Shown: positions 2,956 to 19,619 of the stretch, piece after piece
Layout of the letters: each line of letters starts with the position of its first letter
Position numbering within the stretch: position 1 is the first letter of the stretch
From: Cytophagales bacterium
Lineage (GTDB): Bacteria > Bacteroidota > Bacteroidia > Cytophagales > CCMP332
NCBI GenBank assembly: GCA_028279065.1
Contig: JANQSY010000129.1
Span: 1-34,207 of the forward strand
DNA length: 34,207 nucleotides
Direction: 5' to 3'
Position numbers and translations under genes: made by a program
The notes under the pieces: generated by a model
What the model saw: only the letters and a program-made list of their open reading frames with translations
What the model was told of the DNA's origin: nothing
Databases searched by the model: none

Positions 2956-3696
2956 ATGCTTTTTAAAAGGACACTTAGCGAGGAGCAACTAGAATCTGAG
3001 AAACTGAAGGACTACCAGCGGGTTGTAATGGTACAGATGCTGATCGTTGTCCTTGGAATGGTGTTGGCAGGACTATATGACCCTGGATCGGATACTCCAG
3101 GTGGCCTTTTTGTTAATCTTTTATTTAGCGGATTCGGAGTTCTTTATGCTTTCCTTCTATGGGACATGATGAGGAACTTTACCCAGAACCTGCCTCTGAT
3201 ATCCATAGTATTTTTTGTTTTGATCGGGATCGTAATTACTGGTCTCATCGTTGAAAATCCCTTTATTCAATTCGTACCTGGTGACCTAAGAAGACCATTC
3301 TTAATGGGGATCCATGGAGCATTGTTCCCGATCGAAGTTTTGGTCATCTCCTTCACAATAGTTGATGTCTTTGGAGGAAAATACATGAGCACAGAACGGC
3401 TTTGGGGAGCGGCTTGTGTTTTTTTAATGATTGGAATAAGCTTTGGGAGCCTTTACGATCTGATAAATATTATCCAACCGGGAAGTCTGGGTGAAGAACT
3501 TGAACTAGGCCTTCCCAGTTATACCGAATGCATTTACTATAGTTTCAACGTACTAGGGGGTTTGGATACAGCCTACCCCAATCCCACAAAGCTTGTTCGA
3601 AATCTTGGTGTGATAGAATCCGTTTGGGGAAACTTGTTTACAGTTTTGATCATTGGGAAATTGCTCACCCTGCCTAGCAAGGAGAATAAGAGTTAA
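2956..3696 (+). CDS. six-helix membrane protein resembling a K+ channel, altered pore
   Basis: This 246-residue protein has about six hydrophobic helices (near residues 23-41, 50-70, 80-98, 112-132, 147-165 and 220-240). The C-terminal third resembles the two-helix ion-channel domain: helix 5, then YTECIYYSFNVLGGLDTAYP, then ESVWGNLFTVLIIGKLLTLP, which aligns with the pore helix, filter and inner helix of bacterial K+ channels. Where the canonical filter reads T-x-G-Y-G-D, residues 200-204 here read L-G-G-L-D, so Tyr-Gly are lost but Gly and Asp remain. No arginine-rich voltage sensor is visible. It may be a channel of unusual selectivity or a non-conducting relative. It lies in line upstream of mfd with a 29-nt gap; a functional link to repair is unlikely. 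Confidence 0.7.
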   Translation: MLFKRTLSEEQLESEKLKDYQRVVMVQMLIVVLGMVLAGLYDPGSDTPGGLFVNLLFSGFGVLYAFLLWDMMRNFTQNLPLISIVFFVLIGIVITGLIVENPFIQFVPGDLRRPFLMGIHGALFPIEVLVISFTIVDVFGGKYMSTERLWGAACVFLMIGISFGSLYDLINIIQPGSLGEELELGLPSYTECIYYSFNVLGGLDTAYPNPTKLVRNLGVIESVWGNLFTVLIIGKLLTLPSKENKS

Positions 3697-3725
3697 CTAC
3701 GAGAGCGGTGGAAGGGGAGAAATTA

Positions 3726-6700
3726 ATGAGTATCTACGGACAGGACTCGGTGCTGAGGAGTCGGCTATCAAAGGTGTCGGACTCCAAAAAGACCCATTTC
3801 AAAAATCTATCGGGAAGCCTGCCCTCAGTAATTGTGGCTACCGATTCCCAACTTTCAAAGCGGGATCAATTTATTATCCTCAACGACACTGAAGAAGCGG
3901 GATATTTTTTTGATGATATGAGTCACCTTCTGAGGGATAATGCTGAGATCCTATATTTCCCTCCTTCCTTTAAGAAGCTTTATGAGTTTGAGGAAACTGA
4001 TAATGCCAATGTGGTTTCAAGGGCAGAAGTATTGAGTTCCCTTAGGTCTGATAAACGGAAACCCAGGATAATAGTATCCTGTTCAGAGGCCCTTCCTGAA
4101 AGGGTAATCAGCAAAAAAAACCTGGTTGAGAACTCCGTTGAGATCAGGAAAGGTTCTGAATTGGAGCAGTCCTTTTTGATCGAGTTTTTGAGTGAATATG
4201 GTTTTGAAAAAACCGATTTTGTTTACGAGCCTGGTCAGTTCTCATTAAGAGGGGGGATCATCGATGTTTTTTCTTTTTCAAACGAAAAACCCTTTAGGCT
4301 GGAGTTTTTTGGTGACAGCATAGAAAGTATCAGGGAGTTCAATCCCAATGATCAGTTATCACAGAAGACCCTTGAGGTAGTTAGTATTCTTCCTAACATC
4401 AGATCCGATGAATTTCTTGAAGAAAGGGTCTCCATCTTTGAGTTCTTGGATCGCAATACCCAGATATGGATCAAGGATCTTGACTATTCTTCAAGTATCT
4501 GGGAGAATGTTTTTGGATCTGCTGTTGAAGAATATGACAGGCTAAAAAATGGTAACGGAGATACTCCTGTCGTATTTTCTCCAAAAGAATTATTTGATTC
4601 AGCCAGTGAGGTAATGAAATCCCTGGATCTTTTCAGTATTTGCCAGTTCGGCTTTACTAGATCCGGGGGAAGTTTTGAAGGGATCGACTATTCATCAAGC
4701 CCTCAACCTTCCTTCAATAAGAACTTTGAATTGATCAAAGATGACCTGAAGGAGAAACAGGAATCAGGATATCAGCTATTCATTGCTACGGATCAAATGA
4801 GCTCGGTGGGGAGGATCAACGAGATCTTTAATGAGCTGGATCCGGATCTTTCTTTTCAGATCATTCTACTTGGAATAAAGGAAGGTTTCATTGATGAGCA
4901 GCAAAAAGTGGTTTGCTATACCGAGCATCAACTCTTCGAGAGGTTTTACAGGATAAAAGGTAAGGATAGGTTTTCGAGATCCAGGGCTATCTCGCTTAAC
5001 CAATTGAGGGAACTTCAGATCGGGGACTATGTTACTCATATCGATTTTGGGGTAGGCCGCTTCGTAGGGCTGGAAAAGAGGGAGGTTAACGGAAAAACCC
5101 AGGAATCCATTCGTTTGATCTACCGGGATAATGATATCCTGCTTGTTGGAATCCACGCCTTACATAAGATCTCGAAATATGCCGGAAAAGATGGTGAGGT
5201 TCCAACAATAAGCAAGCTTGGATCGCCAGAATGGGAAAACAAGAAAAAAAGGGCTAAAAGGAAGGTCAAGGATATCGCTAAGGATCTGATCGAACTTTAT
5301 GCTAAAAGAAAAAAAAGCCCTGGTTTTGCTTATTCACCTGATTCCTATTTACAGGCAGAATTAGAGACCTCTTTCCTTTATGAAGACACCCCGGACCAGG
5401 CCAAAGCGACGGACCAGGTCAAAGAAGACATGGAACATCCCCATCCAATGGATAGGCTTGTATGCGGAGATGTGGGATTTGGGAAGACCGAAGTAGCTAT
5501 AAGAGCAGCCTTTAAGGCAGCAACCGAAGGAAAGCAGATCGCAGTGTTGGTTCCAACTACGGTACTTGCACTTCAGCATTTCAAAACTTTCAAAGAAAGA
5601 CTTAAAGATTTTCCGGTTGACATAGAGTACCTCAATCGGTTTCGGACCCAGGCCCAAACCAAAAGAATCCTGAAAAACCTGGAAGAAGGAAAAGCCGACA
5701 TAATTATCGGAACCCATAAGTTGGTCGGAAAAGATGTGAAGTTTAAGGATTTAGGACTTCTGATCATTGATGAAGAGCAAAAGTTTGGGGTTTCCACGAA
5801 AGAAAAACTTAAGAAACTCCGCGTCAATGTTGATGTACTTACCCTAACCGCTACACCGATCCCGAGGACACTTCAATTCTCACTTATGGGTGCCAAGGAC
5901 TTCTCAGTAATCACCACACCACCCCCAAACAGGCAACCGGTACAAACCGAAGTCATGGTATTCAATGAAAAAATCATCAGAGATGCCATTTCTTTTGAGC
6001 TTGCAAGAGGAGGGCAGGTGTTTTTTGTTCATAATAGGATCAAGGACATAGATGAGATCGCAGGAATTGTTAAGAAACTTGTCCCTGAAGCTTCAATTTC
6101 AATAGCTCATGGCCAGATGGATGGGAAGATCCTGGAAAAGACCATGGTAGGATTCATCGAAGGCGAGTATGATATCCTGGTTTCAACCAATATCATTGAG
6201 TCCGGACTTGATATTCCAAATGCGAATACAATTATCATTAACCAAGCCCAGAATTTCGGATTATCAGATCTTCACCAAATGAGGGGAAGGGTTGGCAGGT
6301 CGAATAAAAAAGCGTTTTGTTTTTTCCTTACCCCCCCCCTTACAGGTCTGTCGGGGGATGCAAGGAAAAGGTTGCAAACCCTTTCGGAATTCTCAGAGTT
6401 GGGGGATGGGTATAAAGTGGCAATGAGGGATTTGGATATCAGGGGTGCAGGCAACCTATTGGGTGGTGAGCAAAGCGGTTTTATCAATGATCTCGGGCTT
6501 GAAACTTATCATAGGATCCTTGATGAGGCTGTTCAAGAATTAAAAGAAACAGAATTCAAGGATCTTTTTATGGGAACCGGTGATCCCGAGGAAATTGTCA
6601 AGGATAGCAATCTTGAAACCGATTGGGAGGTTTTGATCCCTGAGGATTATGTGTCCAATATTTCCGAAAGGCTTCGTCTATATACCCGTCTTGATAACCT

Positions 6701-7052
6701 CAAAGATCAATCCGGGGTTGATGGATTCCTGAAGGAGCTTGAAGATAGGTTTGGGCCTGTCCCAGATGAGGTCAATGTCTTGATCAGTCTTCTTCAACTG
6801 AGGTGGATGGCACAAAAGATCGGATTTCAGAAAGTTTCAATAAAAAGCCAAAGGATGAGGTGCTTTTTCCCTGATAAATCACCTGAATATTTTCAGGGAG
6901 AGATGTTTGGGAGAGTCCTGGCTTATGTAAAAAACCACCCGAAGGAATCCAGTTTAAAGGAGGTTAGGGGAACTCTGATCCTTTCTTTTTCCTCCGTAGA
7001 TAATGTTTCTAAAGCACAGCGGGTACTGGGGGAAATTCTTAATAATGAGTAA
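3726..7052 (+). CDS. mfd: transcription-repair coupling factor Mfd
   Basis: Mfd uses ATP-driven translocation to remove RNA polymerase stalled at DNA lesions and recruits UvrA. The product has 1108 residues, the usual length. The N-terminal third is the UvrB-like region. The RNA-polymerase-interacting CarD-like domain starts near residue 430 (LQIGDYVTHIDFGVGRFVGL). The helicase core follows, with Walker A GDVGFGKT near 580, LLIIDEEQ near 682, LTATPIPRTL, and the Mfd/RecG motif QMRGRVGRSNKKAFCFF. The C-terminal domain ends after RFGPVPDEV. I chose the ATG at 3726 over a GTG 18 nt upstream because AAGGGGAG lies 6-14 nt before it. A run of nine C at 6331-6339 codes for Thr-Pro-Pro within the translocase and is a potential slippage site. 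Confidence 0.97.
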   Translation: MSIYGQDSVLRSRLSKVSDSKKTHFKNLSGSLPSVIVATDSQLSKRDQFIILNDTEEAGYFFDDMSHLLRDNAEILYFPPSFKKLYEFEETDNANVVSRAEVLSSLRSDKRKPRIIVSCSEALPERVISKKNLVENSVEIRKGSELEQSFLIEFLSEYGFEKTDFVYEPGQFSLRGGIIDVFSFSNEKPFRLEFFGDSIESIREFNPNDQLSQKTLEVVSILPNIRSDEFLEERVSIFEFLDRNTQIWIKDLDYSSSIWENVFGSAVEEYDRLKNGNGDTPVVFSPKELFDSASEVMKSLDLFSICQFGFTRSGGSFEGIDYSSSPQPSFNKNFELIKDDLKEKQESGYQLFIATDQMSSVGRINEIFNELDPDLSFQIILLGIKEGFIDEQQKVVCYTEHQLFERFYRIKGKDRFSRSRAISLNQLRELQIGDYVTHIDFGVGRFVGLEKREVNGKTQESIRLIYRDNDILLVGIHALHKISKYAGKDGEVPTISKLGSPEWENKKKRAKRKVKDIAKDLIELYAKRKKSPGFAYSPDSYLQAELETSFLYEDTPDQAKATDQVKEDMEHPHPMDRLVCGDVGFGKTEVAIRAAFKAATEGKQIAVLVPTTVLALQHFKTFKERLKDFPVDIEYLNRFRTQAQTKRILKNLEEGKADIIIGTHKLVGKDVKFKDLGLLIIDEEQKFGVSTKEKLKKLRVNVDVLTLTATPIPRTLQFSLMGAKDFSVITTPPPNRQPVQTEVMVFNEKIIRDAISFELARGGQVFFVHNRIKDIDEIAGIVKKLVPEASISIAHGQMDGKILEKTMVGFIEGEYDILVSTNIIESGLDIPNANTIIINQAQNFGLSDLHQMRGRVGRSNKKAFCFFLTPPLTGLSGDARKRLQTLSEFSELGDGYKVAMRDLDIRGAGNLLGGEQSGFINDLGLETYHRILDEAVQELKETEFKDLFMGTGDPEEIVKDSNLETDWEVLIPEDYVSNISERLRLYTRLDNLKDQSGVDGFLKELEDRFGPVPDEVNVLISLLQLRWMAQKIGFQKVSIKSQRMRCFFPDKSPEYFQGEMFGRVLAYVKNHPKESSLKEVRGTLILSFSSVDNVSKAQRVLGEILNNE

Positions 7053-17374: not shown

Positions 17375-18886
17375 CTAATTCGAAAAACCCAGGATCTCGT
17401 CTACATATTCCCTTGAATTTGAAAGTCGCGGAACCTTGTTCTGACCACCAAGTTTTCCGCGGCTTTTCATCCATTTATAAAAGGTGTCCCTAGGTACCAC
17501 GGAGATCTTAGGTGGTGCAAGGGCAATGTCTTTTTCCCTTTTGGCGTCATAATCTGAGTTCAAGGCCTTAAGAGTTTCATCAAGTACCCTACCAAATTTT
17601 TCTTTGGTATCAGGCTGTCGGTTGAATTCGATCACCCATTCATGGCCACCCCTTTTTCCCATATCAAGGTACACAGGAGCTGCAGTGTAATTTGTTATTG
17701 AAGCACCGGTTTCTTTACAGGCCTTTGAAACGGCATTTTCAGCATTATCGATCATCAGCTCTTCACCGAAAGCATTGATGAAGTGTTTGGTTCTTCCCGA
17801 AATGATCACCCGGTAGGGATCGGTGCTGGTAAACTTTACTGTATCGCCAAGATTATATCTCCAAAGCCCCGAGTTTGTTGAAATAATAACCGCATAATTG
17901 ACCCCTTCCTTTACCTCATGAAGGGGTACCGGTTTCTGGGAAGATTCGGATCCTGATGTTGGTAGAAATTCGTAGAAGATCCCGTGATCCAATAATAGCA
18001 TCATACCGTGGTCGTGTTCCTGATCCTGGATTGCAAAGTATCCCTCCGAGGCATTATAATTTTCCAGATAGTAGATCGGAGCGCCAATAAGTCTCTCAAA
18101 AAGGGGCCTGTAAGGTTCAAAGGAAACAGCACCATGCGAAAAGATCTCCAGGTTAGGCCAAACTTCTATGATGGATTCCTTGCCTTTCAATTCCAATATC
18201 CTTTGGAGCAAAACAGTGGTCCATGTCGGAACCCCGGTTATGCTGGTTACGTTCCTGTCCATGGTTTCTCTGGCCATCTTTTCGATCTTCTCTTCCCAGT
18301 GTTCCATTAGCGCAGTCTTGAAACTCGGAACTCGGACATATTGTGCCCAGATGGGAAGATTGGCCATAAGGACAGCCGAAACATCCCCGTATTGGGTTTT
18401 ACCATCAAGGTGATTAATGCTCCGACTCCCTCCGATGACCAGACCCTTTCCCAAAAAGGACTTGGAATTGGGACGGTTCTTCACGTACAGGCTTATCATG
18501 TCCTTGCCACCTTTGAAGTGATTATCCTCCAGAGCTTCAGGACTCACCGGAATAAATTTGCTTCTTGAATTCGTGGTCCCGGAGGATTTAGCGAACCAGC
18601 TGATCTTGGTTGGCCAAAGGACATTCTCCTCGCCCTTCATGGTCCTTTCGATCAATGGGAAAATATCCTCATAGGATGATACCGGAACCCGTCTGGCATA
18701 ATCTTCATATGAGCTTATGCTTTCATACCCAAAGTCTACCCCCCATTTGGTTTTTGATGCTTTGCTTATCAATTCATTAAAGACGGCTAGTTGAGATTCA
18801 ATTGGATTGGAGGCCATATGATCAAGGGCCTTTATCCTCCCCTCAAGTGCCAGCTTCATTATTCCATTGAATAAGGTAGAGATCAT
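17375..18886 (-). CDS. GH3 auxin-responsive promoter family protein (acyl-adenylate ligase fold)
   Basis: This 503-residue protein is of the GH3 family, ATP-dependent enzymes of the adenylate-forming type; in plants GH3 joins hormones to amino acids. All three nucleotide-binding motifs are seen: SSGTTNSRSKFIPVS near residue 103, YNASEGYFAIQ near 275, and LWRYNLGDTVKFTS near 335. The C-terminal lid ends KWMKSRGKLGGQNKVPRLSN. The bacterial substrate is unknown. The ATG at 18886 is preferred because it stands one nt past the lptB stop; the frame opens 36 nt further upstream inside lptB. It is the last gene of the msrB-lnt-suhB-recJ-lptB run, so a role with envelope lipids or LPS is a reasonable but unproven inference. 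Confidence 0.92.
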   Translation of the reverse strand: MISTLFNGIMKLALEGRIKALDHMASNPIESQLAVFNELISKASKTKWGVDFGYESISSYEDYARRVPVSSYEDIFPLIERTMKGEENVLWPTKISWFAKSSGTTNSRSKFIPVSPEALEDNHFKGGKDMISLYVKNRPNSKSFLGKGLVIGGSRSINHLDGKTQYGDVSAVLMANLPIWAQYVRVPSFKTALMEHWEEKIEKMARETMDRNVTSITGVPTWTTVLLQRILELKGKESIIEVWPNLEIFSHGAVSFEPYRPLFERLIGAPIYYLENYNASEGYFAIQDQEHDHGMMLLLDHGIFYEFLPTSGSESSQKPVPLHEVKEGVNYAVIISTNSGLWRYNLGDTVKFTSTDPYRVIISGRTKHFINAFGEELMIDNAENAVSKACKETGASITNYTAAPVYLDMGKRGGHEWVIEFNRQPDTKEKFGRVLDETLKALNSDYDAKREKDIALAPPKISVVPRDTFYKWMKSRGKLGGQNKVPRLSNSREYVDEILGFSN

Positions 18887-18887
18887 T

Positions 18888-19619
18888 TCAAACCTTTCTT
18901 TTAAGCTCGAAGTGTTTCCCAAGATACACTCTTCTTACCTGTTCATCTTCAGCAAGGTCTTCTGCACTTCCCGATTTCAGGATCCGTCCCTCAAAAAGAA
19001 GATATGCCCTGTCTGTGATCGAAAGGGTTTCATTGACATTGTGGTCTGTGATCAGAATGCCAATATTTCGGTTTTTCAATTGGGCTACTATTGATTGGAT
19101 CTCCTCAACAGCAATTGGATCAACCCCTGCAAATGGTTCATCCAGAAGAACAAATTTGGGATCCACGGCAAGAGCCCTTGCGATCTCTGTCCTTCTTCTT
19201 TCACCCCCTGATAGCACAACTCCTTTATTCTTTCTGACATGGGTAAGGCTGAACTCCTCAAGAAGTGACTCCATTCTTTCCCGCTGCTCCTTTTTGGAAA
19301 GCTTGGTCATCTCAAGGACTGCCTTAAGATTCTCCTCGACGGTAAGCTGACGAAAAACGGAAGCTTCTTGGGAAAGATAACCTACGCCTAATTGGGCCCT
19401 TTTGAACATCGGCAAAGGGGTTATCTCCTGGGTGTCTAAAAAGATCTTCCCCTCATTGGGTTTGATCAATCCCACGATCATATAAAAGGTAGTTGTCTTT
19501 CCAGCTCCATTTGGACCAAGCAAACCGACTATTTCACCCTGGTTTACGTGGACGCTTACTTTGTCAACAACGGTCCTTGCCCTATATTTCTTGATCAGGC
19601 TTTCTGCCCTTAATTCCAT
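18888..19619 (-). CDS. lptB: LPS export ABC transporter ATPase LptB
   Basis: LptB is the cytoplasmic ATPase of the LptB2FGC complex, which extracts lipopolysaccharide from the inner membrane and drives it to the outer membrane. The 243-residue protein has Walker [18 protein letters not shown] near residue 35, the Q-loop [19 protein letters not shown] typical of LptB, the signature [16 protein letters not shown], Walker [17 protein letters not shown] and H-loop ITDHNV. The C-terminus YLGKHFEL is also LptB-like. Its start overlaps the recJ end by 38 nt; its stop is one nt from the GH3 start. LptF/G, LptC and LptA are not in the window. Confidence 0.96.

Follow-up and report, generated by a model that had tools for sequence, protein, structure and literature searches.

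NirBac1.1 and NirBac1.2 are described by Zubcevic et al. (2015, PMC4607889) as non-selective cation channels; in that account they form oligomers, interpreted as tetramers, that conduct Na+, K+ and Rb+. They are the closest precedent for the filter-replaced family reported here. TbIRK from Trypanosoma brucei is reported to favour K+ over Na+ by a factor of more than 7 although it lacks TxGYG (PMC5429665). Filters with an acid at the third position, as aligned in PMC7041947, include TLESW, TLEGWVD of CavMr and TVDGWTD of CatSper, and a high-field-strength role is ascribed in PMC4444806 to the four such Glu residues of bacterial sodium channels.

The locus examined here lies in a window of 34,207 nucleotides, the whole stretch of Cytophagales DNA that was analysed, which is contig C137 of a source genome of 3.59 Mb in 191 contigs. 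An open reading frame at 2956..3696 (+) encodes a protein of 246 residues (P0001) that belongs to a conserved family of K+-channel-like proteins with a replaced filter. Four Ion_trans_2 channels are encoded elsewhere in the same genome, and this gene is not one of them. The closest relative in hand (L018; 75% identity across the 246-residue protein) comes from a Cytophagales MAG, G001, the only other genome of the genus in our sample. The gene for the transcription-repair coupling factor, mfd (3708..7052, +; TRCF, UvrB_inter and CarD_TRCF_RID domains), starts 11 bases downstream, with a GTG start as listed. Since mfd is directly downstream only in the window and in L018, its sister species within the genus, it is probably not a functional partner. 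Elsewhere in the window, a full GH3-family protein with N, M and C domains is encoded at 17375-18922 (-) and adjoins genes for an ABC ATPase and a RecJ-like protein, both assigned by eye. The GH3 family is best known for plant hormone conjugation.

A potassium channel pore module in the C-terminal half

Searches with the single protein returned nothing above chance in Pfam, no credible match in NCBIfam and no match among PDB sequences. The initial annotation had named the Ion_trans_2 profile as a check on its reading of a K+-channel-like pore, and this profile gave no match to the window protein at E values up to 10. A PDB search with a 20-row family profile found nothing at E 1, and one with the pore half found chance kinase matches only. 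As a control, GYG-bearing relatives matched 170 PDB sequences; the matches listed were K+ channels, apart from about two that carried only the name 'Transporter' or 'Lmo2059'. None of the 38 full-length family members matched Ion_trans_2 (PF07885) at E 1, among 25 of the 28 matched Pfam families listed (the remaining three match at most one member each), while all 12 GYG-bearing relatives did. Weak Pfam matches of the members (ThrE, ActD, TssN and others; best 0.0006) covered few members, found no agreement elsewhere and were discarded.

Profile-profile comparison places the TM5-pore helix-TM6 unit of the protein as clearly homologous to the pore module of K+ channels. The C-terminal halves of the family and of GYG channels were aligned by hhalign over 106 columns with a probability of 98.8 and an E value of 5e-17. 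In a controlled run, the pore half matched 12 GYG relatives with a probability of 99.1 and a score of 103, whereas the highest of 40 column shuffles scored 18.2 and the reversed profile 8.8. The N-terminal halves of the family and the GYG relatives showed no similarity in profile comparison. A match between alignments A4 and A5 (61% over 11 columns) was dropped, as both contain residues 133-143 and the match reflects this overlap.

The protein has six hydrophobic segments by Kyte-Doolittle peaks. An AlphaFold model built on the 20-row alignment (pLDDT 87.8, pTM 0.86) predicts helices at residues 9-40, 48-75, 79-99, 109-139, 146-173, 186-201 and 212-238, in the order of four transmembrane helices, TM5, a short re-entrant helix, a loop at 202-211 and TM6. 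The N-terminal four-helix bundle spans 2980..3372 (+). Based on the model and on conservation, TM5 (residues 146-173; 3391..3474, +) would form the outer pore helix, and it is the most conserved stretch of the family. The model and the alignment place the re-entrant pore helix at residues 186-201 (3511..3558, +), with a near-invariant Gly201 at its end, and the inner, pore-lining helix TM6 at residues 212-238 (3589..3669, +), with Glu221 and Gly234 invariant. TM6 is followed by only eight residues, and a KirBac-type cytoplasmic domain is absent.

A Foldseek search with the whole model gave no match at E 0.001 or better, the best being the SKOR channel at 0.24. Residues 136-242, approximately, superpose on the pores of Kir2.2, Kir4.1, Kir6.2 and KirBac at 2.0-3.1 A over 91-107 residues (for example 3spc at 2.1 A over 98 residues and 3sph at 2.8 A over 100, Z 6.9-7.0), with Z-scores of 6.1-7.2, values that also arise by chance among helical bundles (rows 1, 2 and 8 are non-channels). 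These Z-scores are for that reason not decisive alone; taken together with the profile match, the superposition is decisive for a K+-channel pore module. By hhalign, Kir superposition and the tree described below, the protein carries the homologous TM-pore helix-TM module of Ion_trans_2 channels. The same evidence confirms that residues 196-208 (SFNVLGGLDTAYP; nucleotides 3541-3579 exactly, as read off the ORF translation) lie between hydrophobic helices at the K+-channel pore site, as had been annotated.

The annotation had also described four further helices without a voltage sensor, and this was borne out. When residues 105-142 were checked across 38 rows, no S4-type Arg/Lys ladder was found in TM4; Arg or Lys occurs in more than half of the rows only at positions 112 and 113, at the helix start. 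Without such a ladder, the N-terminal bundle does not qualify as a voltage sensor. Modelled alone (pLDDT 87.4), this half matched only generic four-helix bundles. The Ci-VSP sensor was among these matches (Z 7.5, rmsd 5.0, 123 residues) but did not rank above unrelated rows, and the assignment as a voltage sensor was rejected.

The filter loop and its conservation

Residue conservation was assessed on the 38 full-length members (alignment A3), leaving out L017 (a tandem paralogue with a degraded loop), L061 (whose end is incomplete), the broken copies L015 and L073-L075, and duplicate retrievals of genes already included. In the family, G-x-[D/E]-[T/S]-x stands where K+ channels have T-x-G-Y-G. 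Nearly all members read G-[GANS]-x-[DEN]-[TSPAHQ]-x-[YLF], compared with T-[TS]-x-G-[YF]-G-D in the GYG relatives. Neither G-Y-G nor G-F-G is present in any of the 32 different strings found at positions 201-211 in the 38 members, so the Tyr-Gly filter is lost, as the annotation had it. Residue 204, whose codon is at 3565..3567 (+), is Asp in 26 members, Glu in 9 and Asn in 3, giving an acid in 35 of 38 (35 of 39 if L017 is included), and it is one of only five among the 246 columns with an acid in at least 34 of the 38. Gly201 is present in 35 of the 38 members and Gly202 in 29, so that the G-G-L-D of the window protein, whose conservation the annotation had wished to see examined, is retained as G-G-x-[D/E]. 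Ser196 of the pore helix, like the two TM6 residues named above, is invariant in all 38. The annotation had staked itself on similarity of the C-terminal third to a channel fold and on conservation of these residues among homologues, and both were found.

The register of the loop depends on the method used. Unforced alignment to a GYG-channel profile with hmmalign placed the window protein without gaps, GGLDTAY against TTLGYGD, and this register fits the pore helix ending at residue 201 in the model. In the same run several other members were gapped differently, and hhalign instead places AYPN against GYGD. In the hmmalign register, the loop G202-L203-D204-T205-A206 (3559..3573, +) would stand in the place of T-V-G-Y-G, and Asp204 likely occupies the position of the first filter Gly, with the caveat that the methods differ. 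The annotation had matched GGLD to GYGD and stated that Gly and Asp are kept; neither hmmalign nor hhalign recovers this register, and it is probably wrong.

One alternative is that K+ selectivity was retained through an unusual filter, for which TbIRK of Trypanosoma, with GGYVG, is the measured precedent (PMC5429665). A second register in our data would pair the conserved Tyr/Phe207 with the Tyr of GYG. Even so, we consider this reading highly improbable, given that most members lack the second filter Gly (12 of 38 have Gly at position 206, and 0 of 33 at position 208). The acid within the filter is likewise unlike known K+-selective filters, none of which, to our knowledge, contains one.

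Mean column entropy is 1.02 bits in TM5, 1.16 in TM6 and 1.94 in the filter loop, compared with 1.79 overall, and a one-residue deletion after the acid gives gapped filter strings in 11 of 38 members. A loop that varies more in length and sequence than TM5 and TM6 speaks for a non-conducting descendant, or pseudo-channel, in which the tetrameric fold would be kept as a sensor or scaffold and the loop would be structural or ligand-binding. We regard this as unlikely, but well worth weighing. Against it, the acid at 204 and Gly201 are each kept in 35 of 38 members, TM6, the would-be pore lining, is among the most constrained parts, and the 246-residue protein has no attached signalling domain.

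Distribution, descent and genomic context

Of 59 relatives, 12 yielded homologues, L016 among them through a GYG channel. A public genome collection added ten contigs with homologues, including seven Kapaibacterium/Ignavibacteria MAGs. Within the order, the 20-row profile matched 40 of 390 genomes at E 0.001. Full-length members are encoded in 30 of these (E 2.1e-67 or better; that of G541 is without its end), three have a broken copy and seven matched through other genes, which in six genomes are ORFs read as GYG channels, the seventh genome being G032. There were matches in 10 of 395 genomes in the class sample, GYG relatives included, and in 2 of 149 in the phylum sample, one of these a putative match at E 2.8e-9. 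The broken copies, with internal stops or as fragments (L073 in G484, L074 in G533 and L075 in G047), come from one family-level group and indicate that the gene is dispensable in some lineages. Both the broken copies and the patchy presence of full-length genes, in 30 of 390 genomes, count in favour of a non-conducting descendant.

The family is under purifying selection. Whole-gene dN/dS (Nei-Gojobori) could be calculated for 8 of 11 pairs and lay at 0.013-0.16; the remaining three pairs have saturated dS. One of these is the window and L018, with a dN of 0.203, so that no ratio is given for this pair. Decay and sequencing artefact were rejected as explanations for the family, since genomes and assemblies that are independent of one another show the same motif and the dN/dS values are low. 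The 'dead pore' offered by the annotation, if understood as decay, is unlikely on the same dN/dS values.

In a tree of 54 pore halves, from which the filter columns had been left out, a single branch separates all 39 filter-replaced rows from the others (support 100/99; 100% of 200 bootstrap trees), and none of 500 shuffles of the filter state needed as few changes as the single one observed. The filter was replaced once, and the clade has a single origin. The tree puts this clade beside the 4+2-TM GYG channels, the exact sister group being tentative since columns are few and long branches meet. The conserved clade of filter-replaced K+-channel relatives is real and has so far been overlooked, while conduction by its members is what we infer. 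The open-access literature searched yielded no report of this family, which is no proof that none exists. A side observation concerns the Kapaibacteria/Ignavibacteria members L021-L027, which share a C-terminal tail ending in P-Y-E (A-Y-T-E in L022) after a variable linker. This tail is absent from the window protein and is perhaps a docking motif.

A search for an operon partner across 31 loci was unsuccessful, as no neighbour is common to the whole family and neighbours differ between clades. The commonest neighbour cluster is an RNA methyltransferase (9 of 31), followed by citrate synthase (7), Band_7 (6) and a Cyclase-family gene (5); a gene of the TPR-histidine kinase type is near 7 of the 31 loci, not always adjacent. 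In one clade, a Band_7/SPFH gene lies 16-34 bases downstream in 6 of 7 loci, and the order family gene, Band_7/SPFH, citrate synthase is seen at L076, L077, L085, L086, L087 and L088. Band_7/SPFH being a membrane-scaffold family, this arrangement hints at a membrane-organising context and is a further point for a non-conducting role.

The proteins could alternatively be auxiliary subunits that co-assemble with the cell's own GYG channel and alter its selectivity or trafficking. At least one Ion_trans_2 channel is encoded in 32 of 33 genomes that have a family member and were examined for this (5 of 6 and 27 of 27), as this reading would have it, but such channels are common regardless (11 of 14 control genomes) and none adjoins a family gene in the neighbourhood table. 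A GYG partner is unlikely to be obligatory, since G008, whose genome is 99% complete, encodes two family members but gives no match to Ion_trans_2. We consider an auxiliary role improbable. The two members in G008, L008 and L017, stand in tandem (G008:C16, 171588-173009). The frame of L017 is intact and its Gly-Gly-x-acid loop is gone entirely (MLKLPMRYME); the two are possibly a heteromeric pair.

Proposed function and comparison with known channels

The best explanation, which we hold with about even confidence, is that the protein is a homo-tetrameric cation channel with a K+-channel pore module, in which the filter was swapped once for a Gly-x-acid loop and which has no K+ selectivity. The starting scaffold would have been the pore module of an Ion_trans_2 potassium channel with 4+2 TM helices and no voltage gating, whose backbone-carbonyl filter T-x-G-Y-G gave way once to the short Gly-x-acid loop. 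Four copies would assemble so that the four Asp/Glu204 side chains face the pore as a carboxylate ring. Cations, Na+ and/or Ca2+, would then be conducted without K+ selectivity, much as by acid rings of the TLESW or TLDDW type, and the four N-terminal helices may couple the pore to some non-voltage stimulus.

We count in favour of a channel that conservation is highest in TM5 and TM6, that the acid at 204 is kept, that the family is under purifying selection and that the filter changed a single time. Counted against conduction are the looser loop relative to TM5 and TM6, the one-residue deletions, which are odd for a precise filter, Asn204 in three members and the loss of the motif in the tandem paralogue L017. 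The method-dependent register of Asp204 and the lack of the Trp and P2 helix of sodium-channel filters also weigh against a channel reading. More tentatively, and with some doubt, the family may mark a third, independent way in which a K+ channel became a cation channel with an acid ring, in a single ancestor and on a 4+2-TM scaffold that has no voltage sensor, with the Gly-x-Asp/Glu-Thr loop serving as a high-field-strength carboxylate ring in a Na+/Ca2+-permeable clade unseen by profile libraries.

If the proteins conduct, they provide a natural experiment on a change of ion selectivity, the rest of the pore being conserved and the loop alone differing, and the comparison is made possible by close GYG relatives that these genomes also encode (L004 for the genome of the window). 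Replacing the filter, for which a few NirBac genes are the known cases, could then found a lasting clade, and channel counts based on the TxGYG signature or on Pfam would overlook such proteins. If they do not conduct, the family would clearly exemplify a pore fold that purifying selection has preserved for a different task.

Among known systems, the 4+2-TM Ion_trans_2 relatives of the same phylum (L016, L036, L039, L065-L071 and L004) share with the family a homologous TM5-pore helix-TM6, including P-G-S/A-x and the R-x-L-x-x-x-E-A-x-x-G-x-L-[FY] of TM6. Unlike the family, they keep T-[TS]-x-G-[YF]-G-D and are matched by Pfam. NavAb, with TLESW, and CavMr, with TLEGWVD (sequences as given in PMC7041947), resemble the family in the acid at the third filter position, provided that the register is right, and some Kapaibacteria members have a further acid four places on (GVDTGFD), as part of the same likeness to Nav/Cav channels. 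Such a likeness would be convergent because the scaffold of the family descends from K+ channels. The family differs from Nav/Cav channels in having no voltage sensor, no Trp at positions 202-211 in any of the 38 members and no P2 helix in the loop before TM6 of the model, and it does not fit a T-x-[E/D]-x-W filter.

TbIRK, as described in PMC5429665, is comparable in its inward-rectifier-like pore, its missing signature and its glycine-rich replacement. It differs in that it reads GGYVG, with no acid in the filter given there, has two TM helices, is eukaryotic and was measured to be K+-selective. NirBac1.1, 1.2 and 2.1, according to PMC4607889, are, like the family, prokaryotic descendants of K+ channels that kept the pore architecture and replaced TxGYG. 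The likeness is one of principle, a K+-channel scaffold with a non-TxGYG loop, and not of descent, the NirBac scaffold being that of a Kir channel with two TM helices and a cytoplasmic Kir domain, whereas the family has 4+2 TM helices and no cytoplasmic domain. As presented in PMC4607889, NirBac comprises a few genes from Anaeromyxobacter and Gemmatimonas, whose loops are homologous neither to each other nor to known filters. The filter-replaced family, in contrast, is a whole Bacteroidota clade with a conserved Gly-x-acid loop.
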